64,000 nt of DNA. Source: Pseudomonas sp. FP2309. Its GTDB lineage: Bacteria; Pseudomonadota; Gammaproteobacteria; Pseudomonadales; Pseudomonadaceae. Under the pieces are notes generated by a model. The model was given only the letters and a program-made list of their open reading frames with translations, was not told the DNA's origin and did no database searches. Made by a program: the position numbers and the translations under genes. Shown in pieces: positions 32,352-39,123 of the stretch. Within the stretch, counting starts at the first letter, position 1, and each line of letters opens with the position of its first letter. The DNA is taken from contig NZ_CP117439.1 in assembly GCF_030687575.1 (NCBI RefSeq), positions 434,001 through 498,000 on the forward strand, in the 5' to 3' direction.

Positions 32352-34814
32352 CTAAAAGAGATCTATCGGCGCCGCCTCATCTGCCGGCAGCGGGCTGCCC
32401 GGTACCACACCGTTGCCCAGTTCGTTGACCGACGGCGGCGTGTCTTCGCTCTTGAACAGCTCAAAGTAGGCGTTCGGCGTGCTTGGCGAGGCTGCACGGC
32501 CACTGATCGGGTCGATCCGCAGGCTGAGGATGCCTTCCGGCTCCGGCTGGGTGTGCAGCGGTTTGTCTTTAAGGGCCGCACCCATGTAACTCATCCAGAT
32601 CGGCAGCGCGACGGTGCCACCGAACTCGCGGCGCCCGAGGCTTTCAGGTTGGTCGTAGCCTGTCCACACGGTGGTGACGTAGTCGGCGTTGTAGCCGGAG
32701 AACCAGGCGTCCTTGGATTCGTTGGTGGTACCGGTCTTGCCCGCGATATCCGCACGGCCCAAGGCCAGGGCGCGACGGCCGGTGCCTTTTTTGATCACGT
32801 CTTCAAGGATGCTGTTGAGGATATAAGTGGTACGGGCATCGACAATGCGCTCGGCCACGGCGGGCGTTTGCGGCTCGGTCGGTGCTGCGTTTGCGGCCGG
32901 TGCGGCCCCTGGCGTCGGCTCAATGGTAATCCCGCCGGTGCTCGGCGCGGCCATGCCGTCGGTGGCGGCTACGCCATTGACCACGTCACCGGGCACCCGT
33001 GGCGGGTTGGCGGTGAACAGGGTGTCGCCATTACGGCTTTCGATCTTGTCGATCAGGTACGGCGTGATCTTGTAGCCGCCGTTGGCAAAAGTGCTCCAGC
33101 CCGTGGCGATTTCCATCGGCGTGAGCGTGGCGGTGCCCAGGGCCAGGGACAGGTTCGCCGGCAGGTCCGATTTGTTGAAGCCAAAGCGCGTGATGTAGTC
33201 GATGGTCTTGCCTACGCCCATCGCTTGCAGCAGACGGATCGACACCAGGTTGCGCGACTTGTAGAGCGCCTCGCGGATGCGGATCGGGCCGAGGAACGTG
33301 TTGGTGTCGTTCTTCGGACGCCAGACCTTGTCCAGGTACTCGTCGACAAACACGATCGGCGCATCGTTGACCAGGCTGGCGGCGGTGTAGCCGTTATCCA
33401 GCGCGGCGCTGTAGATGAACGGTTTGAAGCTCGAGCCCGGTTGGCGCTTGGCCTGGGTGGCGCGGTTGTAGTTGCTCTGCTCAAAGGCGAAACCACCGAC
33501 CAGGGCACGGATCGCACCGTTCTGCGGGTCGAGGGAGACCAGTGCGCCCTGGGCCAGCGGCACCTGGCTGAATTTTAGGCTGTCGTCCTTCTGGCGTTGC
33601 ACGCGGATCAGGTCTCCCACTTGCGCAACGTCCGATGGCTGCTTGGGCATCGGGCCCATGCTGTTGGTGTTCAGGAAAGGCCGCGCCCACTTCATGCTGT
33701 CCCAGGCCACGTGGGCTTCGCCGGTACGGGTGAGTACCTGCACGCCGTCTTTGTTCACCTGGGTGACGATGGCCGGCTCCAGGCCGCTGATCGCGCGTTG
33801 TTTGCCCAGTTCGGTGGCCCAGGCGCTCAGGGTCTTACCCGGCAGGCGTGATTCAGGGCCCCGGTAGCCGTGACGCTGGTCATACGTGATCAGGCCGGAA
33901 TGCACGGCGTTATTGGCGATTTCCTGGGTGTCGCTTGGCACCGTGGTGGTCACGCGGAAACCTTCGGTGTAGGCCTCGCTGCCGTAGCGTCCGACCATTT
34001 CGGCACGGGCCATTTCGGCGATATAGGGTGCGTTCACCTCCGGCGTCGGCACGTGATAGCTGGCATTCAACGGTTCAGCCACGGCACTTTCATAGGCGGC
34101 CTGGTCGATCTTGCCCAGCTTGTACATGCGCCCCAGGATCCAGTCGCGACGTTCCTTGCTGCGCGCCGGGTTGGCCAGGGGGTTGAAGCGCGAAGGTGCC
34201 TTTGGCAGACCGGCAATCATCGCCATCTGCGCCAGGCTGGCGTCGCGAATCGACTTGCCGTAATACACCTGCGAAGCGGCTTCGATGCCATAGGCGCGGT
34301 TGCCCAGGTAGATCTTGTTGACGTAAAGCTCGAGGATTTCGTCCTTGGTCAGCTGCCGTTCGATCTGCAACGCCAGGAGGATCTCGGTGGCCTTACGCGA
34401 AAAACTGCGTTCGCTGGTGAGGAAGAAGTTCTTCGCCACCTGCATGGTGATGGTGCTGCCGCCGGATTGAATGTGTCCGCTTTTTACCAACTGCGTGGCG
34501 GCACGCACCAGGCTGCTGGGGTCGACGCCATAGTGGTTGGCGAAGTTATCGTCTTCGGCAGACAGCAGGGCGCTGATGAAATTAGGCGGAATATCGGCAA
34601 AACGGATCGGTGTGCGGCGCATTTCGCCGAACTCCGCGATCAGTTTTTCATCGCTGCTGTAGACCCGCAAAGGAATCTGCAACTGGATACTTCTGAGGGC
34701 CTCTACGGACGGCAAACCCGGACTAAGGTAGAGGTAGGCCCCGCTGAGTACGAGCATCAGCCCGCAGACGATCGCGACAATGGAGTACCCGAAAAACTTC
34801 AGCAGACGAATCAA
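32352..34814 (-). CDS. mrcA: Penicillin-binding protein 1A (class A PBP)
   Basis: An 820-residue bifunctional peptidoglycan synthase. One N-terminal transmembrane helix (about 10-30), then a GT51 glycosyltransferase domain with catalytic Glu87 in SAEDDNF and the TITMQVAKNFF motif. An OB-like insert follows (about 320-420), then the transpeptidase domain with Ser461 in SSFK, SRN (519-521) and KTGT (Lys692). A Pro/Ala-rich insertion of about 30 residues lies near 615-650 between SRN and KTGT. The gene is divergent from pilM, with about 220 bp between starts, as in P. aeruginosa and as E. coli mrcA is from hofM. Confidence 0.96.
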   Translation of the reverse strand: MIRLLKFFGYSIVAIVCGLMLVLSGAYLYLSPGLPSVEALRSIQLQIPLRVYSSDEKLIAEFGEMRRTPIRFADIPPNFISALLSAEDDNFANHYGVDPSSLVRAATQLVKSGHIQSGGSTITMQVAKNFFLTSERSFSRKATEILLALQIERQLTKDEILELYVNKIYLGNRAYGIEAASQVYYGKSIRDASLAQMAMIAGLPKAPSRFNPLANPARSKERRDWILGRMYKLGKIDQAAYESAVAEPLNASYHVPTPEVNAPYIAEMARAEMVGRYGSEAYTEGFRVTTTVPSDTQEIANNAVHSGLITYDQRHGYRGPESRLPGKTLSAWATELGKQRAISGLEPAIVTQVNKDGVQVLTRTGEAHVAWDSMKWARPFLNTNSMGPMPKQPSDVAQVGDLIRVQRQKDDSLKFSQVPLAQGALVSLDPQNGAIRALVGGFAFEQSNYNRATQAKRQPGSSFKPFIYSAALDNGYTAASLVNDAPIVFVDEYLDKVWRPKNDTNTFLGPIRIREALYKSRNLVSIRLLQAMGVGKTIDYITRFGFNKSDLPANLSLALGTATLTPMEIATGWSTFANGGYKITPYLIDKIESRNGDTLFTANPPRVPGDVVNGVAATDGMAAPSTGGITIEPTPGAAPAANAAPTEPQTPAVAERIVDARTTYILNSILEDVIKKGTGRRALALGRADIAGKTGTTNESKDAWFSGYNADYVTTVWTGYDQPESLGRREFGGTVALPIWMSYMGAALKDKPLHTQPEPEGILSLRIDPISGRAASPSTPNAYFELFKSEDTPPSVNELGNGVVPGSPLPADEAAPIDLF

Positions 34815-35032
34815 GGCTTTTGGATTTCCAGAGAAAAGAATGAGTTACGCGTCGGGGCATGCATGGCAAACGATGGATCAACCCGAGCTGCAGATAAAAA
34901 GCGGGGAAAAACGCTGGGCATTAAAGCATTTTTCGCCTTGGGGCGTCATTCGCGGCGCCTGAACAAGCCGACCGAATGCAGGGTGCACAACAGCAATCAG
35001 GCGGTATGACAGGCAAAGTTTTAGGGAGTTTT

Positions 35033-35686
35033 ATGGCAAAGGGATTTTTCAGGCAAAAAGTCGACGCCTTGCTGGGTGTCGACATCAATGACACGTCCAT
35101 CCGGTTGGTCGAACTGGAGCGTTCAACCACCGGTTACAGTGTCCAGGGCTATACCACTCAGGTGTTGCCTGCCCAGGCGGTAGTCGATGGCACCGTGCTT
35201 GACGTCGAGGGTGTGGGGCGCGCTTTGCACACGGCGTTGGCTCGGTTGCAAACCCGCGCCCGTGGCGCGGCGGTGGCGGTTGCGGGGCCATCGGTCATCA
35301 CGCGGGTGGTCGAGTTGGAGGCTGGGCTCAGCGACGATGAAATGGCATGGATGATCCAGATGGAGGCCGAGCAGTACATACCGTGCCCCCTGGATGACAT
35401 GGCCATTGACTTTCAGGTGCAGGGCCGCTCGGCTCATGACCCCGCGCGGGTCGAGGTGTTGCTGGCGGCGTGCCTGAAGGAGCAGGTGGAGGCCCGCGAG
35501 GCGGTTTTGGCCCTGGCGGGGCTGGTGCCCAAGGTTATCGATGTTGAAGCGTTTGCATTGGCGCGCGCGAACAGTCAGGATTTCGCCAGCTTCACGCCGG
35601 GCCATCGAGTCAATGATGCACAATGGGCCGTGGATGCCCAAGGGATGGGAGTTGCCTGCGGGCTGGCCCTGAGGAGTTTCGCTTGA
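35033..35686 (+). CDS. pilM: PilM-like type IV pilus assembly protein with internal deletion
   Basis: A 217-residue cytoplasmic actin-like protein, expected to bind the PilN N-terminus and link the inner-membrane complex to the motor. Residues 1-178 align in character with normal PilM (ALLGVDINDTSIRLVEL nucleotide loop, AGLSDDEMAWMIQMEAEQYI, VIDVEAFALARA). The C-terminal ~26 residues (RVNDAQWAVDAQGMGVACGL and ALRSFA) match the PilM end. The ~137 residues normally between, including the second phosphate and adenosine motifs, are absent in frame. Start ATG 35033 has AGGGAG 7 nt upstream and aligns with known PilM starts. The stop overlaps the pilN TTG start. ATP binding is probably lost. E. coli HofM is also shortened. 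Confidence 0.85.
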   Translation: MAKGFFRQKVDALLGVDINDTSIRLVELERSTTGYSVQGYTTQVLPAQAVVDGTVLDVEGVGRALHTALARLQTRARGAAVAVAGPSVITRVVELEAGLSDDEMAWMIQMEAEQYIPCPLDDMAIDFQVQGRSAHDPARVEVLLAACLKEQVEAREAVLALAGLVPKVIDVEAFALARANSQDFASFTPGHRVNDAQWAVDAQGMGVACGLALRSFA

Positions 35687-36237
35687 AGACATTGATCAAC
35701 CTTTTGCCTTGGCGTCAGGCACTGGCAGAGCGGCGACGCAAATATCTCCTGGCGTTTCTGCTGGCGTTTGTCTGTGTGGCGTTGGCGGCCGTGTGGCTGG
35801 CGGACCAGGTGATCGATCAGGCGATCGATCGGCAGGTGACGCGCAACAACCACTTGGACAAGGACGTTGCTCTTCAGGCCTCCAGCATCAAGACCATCGA
35901 CGACCTGCAGGAGCGAAGCCAGCAATTGGCCCAGCGCATGAAGGTCGTGCAGGACCTGCATGATGGCCGTTCGGCCAGTGCCCAACTGTTGGACCAATTG
36001 GCGCGTGCAGTGCCCGAGGGTGTCCACCTGCATGAAGTGGTGGCGAAGGGCGATACGGTGAGTATCAGCGGCAGCGCCGAATCCAGTCAGGACATCGCTC
36101 AGTTGATGCGCCGTCTGGAGGCCTCCGAAGGTGGCCACGCTGCCCGCCTGCAACATGTGCGAACCGAAGGTGCGCATGGCAACAACGAATTTCAAATGAT
36201 GGTGCGTCAGGGAGCGTCTTCCGAGGCCCAGCCATGA
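35683..36237 (+). CDS. pilN: Type IV pilus assembly protein PilN
   Basis: A 184-residue bitopic inner-membrane protein. The cytoplasmic N-terminus MKTLINLLPWR carries the INLLPWR motif that docks into PilM. One transmembrane helix follows (about 20-42), then a periplasmic coiled coil (about 45-100) and a ferredoxin-like domain (VPEGVHLHEVVAKGDTVSIS...). The start is TTG 35683 with GAGGAG 7 nt upstream, overlapping the pilM stop as TTGA. The retention of the PilM-binding motif suggests that the PilM-PilN contact is still under selection. It overlaps pilO/P by 4 nt. Confidence 0.92.
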   Translation: MKTLINLLPWRQALAERRRKYLLAFLLAFVCVALAAVWLADQVIDQAIDRQVTRNNHLDKDVALQASSIKTIDDLQERSQQLAQRMKVVQDLHDGRSASAQLLDQLARAVPEGVHLHEVVAKGDTVSISGSAESSQDIAQLMRRLEASEGGHAARLQHVRTEGAHGNNEFQMMVRQGASSEAQP

Positions 36238-37205
36238 GCCTGCCCAGGCTCGATTTCTACGCACTGACCCACAACGCTGCAAAATGGCCCTGGCCTGCCA
36301 AGGTCTTGCTTGGCTGCGCGCTGGCGGGGATGGTGCTGGTAGTGGGTGAGCTGATGGTCCTGAGTGCATCCCGGCAGCGCTTGTCTCAGGTCGAGACTCA
36401 GGGCGAGGTTCTGCAGCGCCGGTTCGCGGAAAACGCCGTCTTCAGCGCTGCCCTCGATGCGCAGGCTGAACAATTGCAGCGTATGCAGTTAAAGGCCGAT
36501 GAGCTGTTGCAGCAATTGCCCCGTGCGTCTGAAATGCCCGGCCTGCTGGAGGATATCGCCAGGCTGGCACTGGCCAATGGTCTGGTGGTCGAGAGCGTCA
36601 TGCCATTGGATGAGCGGCCCCAGGCGTTCTATGTCGAGCAACCCGTCCAACTCGGCGTCACTGGGGGTTATCACGACCTGGCAACGTTCGTGAGCGCCTT
36701 GGGCAGCCTTTCGCGAATGACCATGGTGCGCGATGTCTCCCTGCAAAGGGATGGCGGCCTGCTGCGCCTGGACATGCTGGCCACCACCTATTGGCTGACG
36801 CGGCCAGACGTCAGTCGCGGCGAGGTGCTCCCTCAGCGGCCCTCATTTGTCTACGACGCCACTGCGCTGCGCGATCCGTTCCAGCCATCGGCTCTGCAAG
36901 TCGATCATGTGCCGGGGCGGTTTGCGCAGGCTCCGGACCTTGCTCGACCACGGAGCGTGCTGGAAGGCCTTGCGGTGGACCAGTTCAAAATGGTCGGCAC
37001 GTTGTCCCGCGGCACGCAGACGTTTGCGCTGCTGCAAGCGGCATCAAGGGTCTACCGCCTGGCGGTCGGTGATTACCTGGGGCCGGATCATGGCCGGGTC
37101 ACGGCGATCCATGCCGGCCATCTCGAGCTGGTCGAGCTGTTCCCCGATGAGCAGGGCGCATGGCTGGAACGCCCGCGAACCCTCGTGCTAAACATCAACT
37201 CATAA
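36234..37205 (+). CDS. PilO-PilP fusion protein
   Basis: A 323-residue protein joining two alignment-complex subunits that are normally separate. Residues 1-186 are PilO-like: cytoplasmic N-terminus, transmembrane helix (about 23-45), coiled coil (46-95) and ferredoxin-like domain (GVTGGYHDLATFVSALGSLS). Residues about 205-320 are PilP-like: RDPFQPS, then VDQFKMVGTLSRGTQTFALL and the beta-domain with VGDYLGPDHGRVTAI, ending ERPRTLVLNIN. The PilP lipoprotein signal peptide and lipobox are missing, so PilP is tethered through the PilO helix instead of a lipid anchor. No stop codon or frameshift interrupts the join. It overlaps pilN by 4 nt and precedes pilQ by 12 bp. Confidence 0.88.
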   Translation: MSLPRLDFYALTHNAAKWPWPAKVLLGCALAGMVLVVGELMVLSASRQRLSQVETQGEVLQRRFAENAVFSAALDAQAEQLQRMQLKADELLQQLPRASEMPGLLEDIARLALANGLVVESVMPLDERPQAFYVEQPVQLGVTGGYHDLATFVSALGSLSRMTMVRDVSLQRDGGLLRLDMLATTYWLTRPDVSRGEVLPQRPSFVYDATALRDPFQPSALQVDHVPGRFAQAPDLARPRSVLEGLAVDQFKMVGTLSRGTQTFALLQAASRVYRLAVGDYLGPDHGRVTAIHAGHLELVELFPDEQGAWLERPRTLVLNINS

Positions 37206-37217
37206 CGGACTAAACCA

Positions 37218-38600
37218 ATGAAAAGGACTTTTTCGTCCTTCGGTGTGGCGCTATGGATAGCGTTCACGGCACCGATGGCTGTCGCTGTGCCCAATCGCAT
37301 GGATCTGATCCAGTTGCCACCGCCTGGCAACGGAGTGTCGGGCGCCTACAAAGGCGACAAACTTAACCTCAACTTCCAGAACATCGAGTTGCGCGCCGTA
37401 CTGCAGCAGATCGCTGACGTAGCGGGCCTCAACCTGGTGGCCAGTGACGAGGTGCAAGGCTCGATCACGCTGCGCCTCAAGGATGTGCCCTGGGATCAGG
37501 CGTTGGACCTGGTGTTGCAAACCAAAGGCTTGGATAAGCGGATTAACGCCGGCGTGTTGCTCGTGGCGCCGGCCGAAGAGCTGGCCGCGCGCGAACTGCT
37601 GACGCTGGAGTCGCGCAAGCAAATGGCCGACCTGGCGCCGTTGCGTCGTGAACTGCTGCAGGTCAATTACGCCAAGGCGGCCGACCTGGCCAAACTGTTC
37701 CAGTCGGTGAGCGGCCTGGAAGGTACGACCGATGAGCGCGGCTCGGTGGCGGTGGATGATCGCACCAACAACATCATCGCCTACCAGACCGGCGAGCGAC
37801 TCGAAGAGCTGCGACGAATCGTGGCGCAGCTGGATATTCCTGTTCGCCAGGTGATGATCGAAGCGCGCATCGTCGAGGCCAATGTCGACTATGACAAAAG
37901 CCTGGGTGTGCGCTGGGGGGGGCGGCTCAATCGTGGCAACTGGGCGGCTGGCGGTGTCGACAAGCCCGTGGCTGACGGTGCGCAAGCGCCGGACAACCCG
38001 CCCAGCTCACCATTTGTCGACCTGGGTTCGTTGGGCGGTACCTCCGGTCTGGGCATCGCCTATATCACCGATAACCTGCTGTTGGACCTGGAGCTGACGG
38101 CCATGGAAAAAACCGGGAACGGCGAAATCGTCTCGCAGCCCAAGGTCGTCACCTCCGACAAAGAGACCGCACGCATCCTCAAGGGCACCGAGATTCCCTA
38201 CCAGGAATCCACCTCTCAGGGCGCCACGTCGGTGTCATTCAAGGAAGCCTCGTTGTCCCTGGAAGTCACGCCGCAGATCACCCCTGATGACCACGTGATC
38301 ATGGTGGTCAAGGTGACCAAGGATGAGCCGGACTACCTGAACAAACTCAACGACGTTCCGCCGATCAAGAAAAACGAGGTCAACGCCAAGGTGCTGGTCA
38401 AGGATGGCGAGACCATCGTGATTGGCGGAGTTTTCTCCAATACCCAAAGCAAAGTGGTAGATAAAGTGCCATTTTTGGGCGATGTGCCGTATCTTGGCCG
38501 CCTTTTCCGGCGCGATGTGCTGGCGGAGAAAAAATCCGAGCTGCTGGTATTCCTGACTCCGCGTATTATGAATAACCAGGCGATTGCTGTGAGTCGTTGA
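37218..38600 (+). CDS. pilQ: Type IV pilus/HofQ-like secretin PilQ, short form
   Basis: A 460-residue outer-membrane secretin. The signal peptide spans about residues 1-23 (AVAVPN region). An STN domain follows (about 45-120, [20 protein letters not shown]), then an N1 secretin domain ([20 protein letters not shown]) and the C-terminal secretin barrel with [11 protein letters not shown] and [17 protein letters not shown]. aeruginosa PilQ is ~714 residues with N-terminal AMIN domains that bind peptidoglycan; these are absent here, so size and layout resemble Haemophilus ComE and E. coli HofQ. The C-terminal secretin motifs look intact. It ends 4 bp before aroK. Confidence 0.9.
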
Positions 38601-38604
38601 TTCT

Positions 38605-39123
38605 GTGCGAAATTTGATTCTTGTAGGACCGATGGGGGCTGGAAAAAGCACCATCGGCCGTTTGCTGGCCAAAGAGCTGCGCCTGCCATTCAAAGACTCC
38701 GATAAGGAAATTGAATTGCGCACGGGTGCCAATATCCCGTGGATCTTCGATAAGGAAGGCGAACTGGGCTTTCGTGACCGCGAGCAGGCGATGATCGCCG
38801 AGCTGTGCGGCTGCGACGGCGTGGTATTGGCCACCGGCGGTGGCGCAGTGATGCGCGATGAAAACCGTCGGGCGCTGCATGCCGGCGGACGGGTGGTTTA
38901 TTTGCACGCATCGGTCGAACAGCAGGTGGGTCGCACCGCCCGCGATCGCAATCGCCCACTGTTGCGCACGGCCAATCCGGAAAAAACCTTGCGCGACCTG
39001 CTGACGCTGCGCGATCCGCTGTACCGGGAAATCGCCGATCTGGTGGTGGAAACCGATGAGCGGCCCCCTCGGATGGTGGTGCTGGACATTCTTGAGCGCC
39101 TGCAACGGCTGCCACCCCGTTAA
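38605..39123 (+). CDS. aroK: Shikimate kinase
   Basis: A 172-residue P-loop kinase phosphorylating shikimate at the 3-hydroxyl in chorismate synthesis. Walker [10 protein letters not shown] (residues 8-16), the shikimate-binding DSDKEIE and [13 protein letters not shown], and the lid Arg in RDRNRPLL are all present. The start is GTG 38605, 4 bp after pilQ; no ATG fits. aroB follows 125 bp downstream. The pilQ-aroK-aroB order is widespread in gammaproteobacteria. Confidence 0.95.

Follow-up and report, generated by a model that had tools for sequence, protein, structure and literature searches.

A remodelled pilMN(OP)Q locus in Pseudomonas sp. FP2309 as the possible base complex of a slimmed, TfpB-driven type IVa pilus

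We analyzed a window of 64,000 nucleotides from Pseudomonas sp. FP2309 (assembly GCF_030687575.1, contig NZ_CP117439.1, positions 434,001 to 498,000), in which a compact set of type IV pilus genes reads in the order mrcA, pilM, pilN, pilOP, pilQ, and aroK. Coordinates below are window positions unless they carry a locus label. The left flank is mrcA (32352-34814, − strand), and the right flank is aroK (38605-39123). As the original prediction had stated, every gene between these flanks is present and all four pil open reading frames (ORFs) are open. The claimed 4-nt overlaps are also intact, reading TTGA between pilM and pilN and ATGA between pilN and pilOP, and a gap of 12 nt separates pilOP from pilQ. 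An asponA antisense RNA (Rfam RF02812, 147 bits) at 34542-34835 (+) lies across the mrcA start, just upstream of pilM, and could influence both genes.

The pilM gene (35033..35686, +) encodes a short form of 217 amino acids. Its longest ORF opens at an ATG at 34976, yet the start at 35033 agrees with homologues. The protein matches PilM_2 (E 2.5e-50) only over positions 1-167 of a 340-position profile and thus lacks a complete actin-like fold with its nucleotide lobe. PilM had been described beforehand as shortened, which is correct for its length, but the change is an internal deletion rather than a simple truncation. Against Pseudomonas aeruginosa PilM, it aligns to residues 5-182 and, weakly (11.7 bits), to residues 322-356, so that ~139 internal residues are gone in frame and the C-terminus is retained. 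The same deletion appeared in an alignment with a full-length Pseudomonas PilM (locus L111), whose FtsA Pfam match (residues 198-327) falls inside the missing segment. What remains is the first lobe (approximately residues 1-180, 35033..35572, +) and, after the deleted lobe, a C-terminal segment (residues 195-216, 35615..35680, +) that is helical in a structure model and that contains residues invariant across 26 aligned short PilMs (A208, C209, G210, and A212-F216). PilM is 217-218 amino acids and PilOP 320-333 amino acids long throughout 25 named loci (L015-L039), except for L024 and L038, indicating that the reduced forms are not chance; these loci were retrieved with a PilOP query and are therefore fused by selection, and three of the 25 represent one assembly. 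In that assembly, Pseudomonas costantinii LMG 22119, the locus occurs on three contigs (L025, L026, and L037), which is probably assembly redundancy.

Downstream, pilN (35683..36237, +; 184 amino acids; Pfam PilN, E 1e-15) carries the N-terminal motif INLLPWR, which we take to be PilM-binding. The earlier claim that PilO and PilP are fused was confirmed, as both Pfam domains (PilO at residues 50-187 and PilP at 198-319) sit in the single 323-amino-acid ORF of pilOP (36234..37205, +). Model matches back both folds: the predicted PilO core (residues 118-188, 36585..36797, +) resembles the P. aeruginosa PilO core 5uvr (TMt 0.75), and the predicted PilP HR domain (residues 242-319, 36957..37190, +) resembles P. 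aeruginosa PilP 2y4x (TMt 0.93, 1.4 Å). The linker joining them (residues 189-241, 36798..36956, +) was modeled with lower confidence (pLDDT) and has no lipobox, so the cysteine that would make PilP a lipoprotein is missing. No lipobox-like cysteine occurs beyond residue 150 in any of 42 fused PilOP proteins. By contrast, 20 of 28 separate PilPs contain the strict lipobox pattern, and in the remaining 8 this position reads L-x-G-C.

The pilQ gene (37218..38600, +) encodes a 460-amino-acid secretin aligning to residues 278-714 of P. aeruginosa PilQ. As anticipated, it is short: Pfam finds no AMIN domain here and two in the full-length PilQ of L111, while the N0/STN (37368..37571, PF21305/PF07660), Secretin_N (N1; 37650..37850, PF03958), and secretin (38100..38570, PF00263, E 4.2e-50) domains are all retained on the + strand. 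A putative signal peptide (residues ~1-24, 37218..37289, +) was recognized by eye from its likeness to the N-terminus of the L111 protein. Profile scores place this PilQ well above the TIGR02515 PilQ cut-off (503 bits vs. 284) and below those for HofQ (291 vs. 554) and the GspD equivalog (224 vs. 351).

Escherichia coli HofMNOPQ and Haemophilus ComABCDE are two systems with which such a locus may be compared, and the original prediction read it as Hof/Com-like. That reading held for the position between mrcA and aroK and for sizes near those of Hof, including an AMIN-less secretin of similar length. However, HofO and HofP are separate proteins in E. coli, and the PilQ scores led us to reject a Hof identity; judged by these scores, the locus is a derivative of PilMNOPQ. 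A comparison of E. coli HofM with the short PilMs gave an hhalign probability of 1.1 from a shallow alignment (Neff 1.7).

The genome (one contig of 5.66 Mb) contains much of the remaining pilus machine. Of the genes expected elsewhere, pilA, pilC, pilD, and pilT were found, whereas pilB was not, with no TIGR02538 match above the cut-off. The pilA gene (Pfam Pilin) lies 187 bp from pilC and is followed by pilD (Peptidase A24) and coaE; in three PilB-positive loci (L142, L143, and L159), pilB sits between pilA and pilC. The PilC here has a T2SSF domain, scores under the curated NCBIfam cut-offs, and is 64-66% identical to the pilB-adjacent PilCs of those loci. Six PF00437 matches comprise GspE-like proteins at two loci (one above the GspE cut-off), a TadA-like protein, a PilT-family ATPase above its cut-off, a TfpB-like ATPase, and a weak partial match, indicating that PilU is absent along with PilB. 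Apart from the TfpB-like protein (L043:7431-9140, 569 amino acids), no further pilus-type extension ATPase was found. This protein scores far higher as TfpB (NF053534, 810 bits) than as PilB (497) or GspE (488), is 68-69% identical to TfpBs of two genomes that exceed the cut-off (G062 and G011), and has an intact Walker A motif and an MshEN domain (PF05157), which in MshE binds cyclic di-GMP. The PilT-family ATPase has Walker A and the motif AIRNLIRE, presumably a PilT marker. PilV (above its cut-off), a PilX_N protein, and three further prepilin-type ORFs lie between an ispH-like LytB gene and an FAD oxidoreductase gene; PilY1 was absent from this cluster and was not found in the genome by PF05567. 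ComEC is present (PF03772). The original prediction held that a second complete pilMNOPQ set would mark this copy as vestigial, but no second pilM or pilQ was found in the genome. Compared with the type IVa PilMNOPQ of P. aeruginosa, this version therefore has a PilM without the FtsA-like lobe, a fused PilOP without a lipobox, a PilQ without AMIN, and no PilB. Beside pilA lies a 466-amino-acid protein (L040:7263-8663) with weak likeness to TfpM, an oligosaccharyltransferase acting on pilins (27 bits against a cut-off of 600), and a type III secretion secretin, SctC, is encoded elsewhere (L050:1000-3132, −).

To assess constraint, we estimated median nonsynonymous-to-synonymous rate ratios (dN/dS, Nei-Gojobori) for fused-type loci (28-29 loci, 248-406 pairs) and full-type loci (11 loci, 16-44 pairs). 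Fused-type medians were 0.19 for PilM, 0.12 for PilN, 0.26 for PilOP, 0.09 for PilQ, and 0.03 for aroK, compared with full-type medians of 0.09 for PilM, 0.14 for PilN, 0.16 for PilO, 0.13 for PilP, 0.11 for the PilQ core, and 0.07 for aroK, in a comparison where the limits on synonymous divergence differ and the full-type pairs are more distant. Within PilOP, dN/dS was 0.29 for PilO, 0.93 for the linker (residues 191-206), and 0.18 for the PilP core. TfpB had a dN/dS of 0.12 in six fused-clade genomes. None of 47 full-length short-PilM matches and none of 36 PilQ matches had an internal stop. On these estimates, constraint persists on the reduced genes but has weakened for PilM and PilO. The argument that intact frames speak against simple decay thus gained support, with medians of 0.09-0.26 far below 1, and the locus does not look like one in simple decay. 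Relaxed selection and frameshifts in relatives had been named as signs of a vestigial copy, and here the outcome was mixed, since the ratios stay well under 1 while two named relatives carry lesions, a mild point towards that view. Apparent frameshifts, either true lesions or sequencing errors, occur in the pilM of L024, the pilOP of L038, and the pilP of L101, as well as in the pilQ of a full-type locus from a PilB-positive genome (L140, G248).

Across 298 Pseudomonas genomes, PilB scored above the cut-off in 167, and 131 showed none. A full PilQ query matched all 298, and we used an E value above 1e-250 as a proxy for reduction. By this proxy, PilQ was reduced in 111 genomes, 110 of which were PilB-negative; the PilQ of the lone PilB-positive exception (G082) proved to be full length at 730 amino acids. 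On the unreduced side (n = 187), 166 genomes were PilB-positive and 21 were PilB-negative. Two of these 21 have a shortened PilQ (573 amino acids in G073 and 587 in G272), and four have a full-length one (G021, G034, G137, and G275), suggesting that trimming can come after the loss of PilB. Every one of the 47 genomes with a short PilM was both PilB-negative and PilQ-reduced. A non-random subset of 41 genomes was selected to cover the classes; TfpB was detected in all of them (22 above the cut-off), ComEC likewise in all 41 (PF03772), and PilB in 5. The same five were those that combine full PilQ and PilM with unfused PilO and PilP, and they and G272 were the only six with PilY1.

We then placed the changes on a quick maximum-likelihood tree of mrcA and aroK from 69 loci, in which 27 of 66 inner branches were well supported. 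The minimum number of changes was five for AMIN number, three for loss of the PilM lobe, and two for PilOP fusion. Short PilM occurs with separate PilO and PilP in seven loci of the window's clade (L101-L105, L134, and L135), so by this distribution the short PilM predates the PilOP fusion there. The PilM lobe was lost separately in L117. In L125 (2890-4011) and L128 (3008-3994), PilM and PilN form a single ORF, and both genomes also carry a fused PilOP. A C-terminal ACGLA stretch was retained after each of the three lobe losses (ACGVA in L023), and it is altered in some diverged long PilMs (L123, L124, L131, and L132).

Taken together, we infer, with a probability of about 0.58, that pilMN(OP)Q provides the outer-membrane gate and the base complex, remodelled but still functional, for a slimmed, TfpB-driven type IVa pilus, most likely one used for DNA uptake. 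TfpB would dock on the remaining PilM lobe, itself bound to the PilN N-terminus, and the actin-like nucleotide lobe would be dispensable. Through a flexible linker, PilO would carry the HR domain of PilP from the inner membrane to the N0 domain of PilQ, and PilQ, freed from AMIN-based pinning to peptidoglycan, may be an adequate gate for a low-load pilus. PilT would retract the pilus, with pulling DNA towards ComEC as its likeliest job. We favor DNA uptake because the genome retains a PilT, minor pilins, and ComEC but has neither PilU nor PilY1. The absence of PilU, PilY1, and AMIN makes strong surface pulling, such as twitching, unlikely. In Thermus thermophilus, PilM is bound by the motor; a PilM deficient in ATP binding retains this interaction and, together with PilN, stimulates the motor (PMC6325625), which by analogy makes loss of the nucleotide lobe plausible. 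In P. aeruginosa, AMIN domains bind peptidoglycan and position the machine at the pole, and the authors suggest a role for AMIN in withstanding the forces of twitching (PMC5285504). A pilus relieved of pulling the cell could dispense with these domains. The trimmed alignment complex originally predicted survives here as a reduced, maintained complex and secretin in a genome with ComEC, although that proposal missed the change of motor, the loss of PilY1 and PilU, and the recurrence across lineages.

Several observations weigh against this interpretation. Short PilM and PilOP evolve about twice as fast as their full-type counterparts, indicating partly relaxed constraint, and three inspected reduced loci contain the frameshifts described above. 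This genome's own TfpB falls under the curated cut-off (810 vs. 850 bits). ComEC does not discriminate, as all five PilB-positive genomes of the subset also have it. Only three pairs provide independent PilQ-PilB contrasts, one of them on supported branches, and a sign test was not significant, so the coupling is consistent rather than statistically independent. In P. aeruginosa, secretins of AMIN-less PilQ were described as stable but unable to function, and PilO no longer localized to the poles (PMC5285504). The faster evolution and the frameshifts would also be expected if the pilus had become useless after PilB loss and the operon were slowly eroding, with PilQ kept longest. Two publications also speak for this scenario: in Pseudomonas putida WCS358, PilB absence was read as explaining absent type IV pili (PMC4509608), and a Pseudomonas fluorescens subclade III strain is reported to lack pilB, pilD, pilT, and many others of the pil genes (PMC4672498). 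The latter strain slightly lowered our confidence in a working pilus, as did an unspecific GspL-like fold match of PilM, which fits EpsL no better than MreB or Hsp70. Still, we consider slow decay unlikely, given ratios far below 1 over divergent species (TfpB included), losses that comprise whole domains in frame with a constant PilM length in the window's clade, a retained set of other pilus genes, and a pilQ frameshift in a PilB-positive genome, showing that lesions are not limited to reduced loci.

It is also conceivable, though improbable, that the complex now serves a different envelope function instead of DNA uptake, for example secretion or surface fibers that do not retract; the PilT-family ATPase with intact motifs and the retained minor pilins argue otherwise, and the genome already has two type II secretion-like loci. 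Least expected is a type IVa pilus that still adheres or twitches in the usual way, the lost domains being immaterial. In its favor, AMIN number ranges from 0 to 3 in 197 proteobacterial type IVa pilus secretins, and the authors state that it does not determine function while naming AMIN loss as deserving further investigation (PMC7545093). Yet PilU and PilY1 are absent here, and the polar placement seen in P. aeruginosa requires AMIN (PMC5285504).

Beyond this genome, we tentatively propose, at somewhat less than even odds, a distinct class of Pseudomonas pilus with TfpB as its sole extension motor, spanning up to ~44% of sampled species (the 131 of 298 without PilB), in which the base complex was repeatedly rebuilt along the lines of type II secretion through loss of AMIN and of the PilM nucleotide lobe, tethering of PilP to PilO and, in one clade, fusion of PilM to PilN. 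Type II secretion uses a GspL/GspC/GspD layout, and the AMIN-less secretin, the HR domain on a transmembrane anchor, and the GspL-like PilM-PilN fusion of L125 and L128 are similar, whereas the sequences and gene set here (PilQ, PilT family, PilA) are of the pilus type; the resemblance would be convergent. Parts of this picture were already known, namely variable AMIN number (PMC7545093) and a TfpB-only strain, P. fluorescens A506, whose meaning was left open (PMC8213720). The available part of the latter paper does not mention remodelling of the base complex, and among titles and abstract openings in the literature, none linked the loss of PilB to a remodelling of PilM, PilOP, or PilQ. The two-motor pilus of Acinetobacter baylyi shares the TfpB-type ATPase but also uses PilB (PMC8213720), while here TfpB is the sole extension ATPase found, alongside a remodelled base complex. 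If our proposal is true, the lost parts mark features of the alignment complex that serve PilB and high-load pulling, not pilus building as such, and this natural deletion series offers a ready dissection of the roles of the PilM nucleotide lobe, the PilP lipid anchor, and PilQ AMIN. Moreover, should a slim pilus indeed be driven by TfpB, a pilus has gone unnoticed in many plant- and soil-associated species, and with it, possibly, a route by which they take up DNA.

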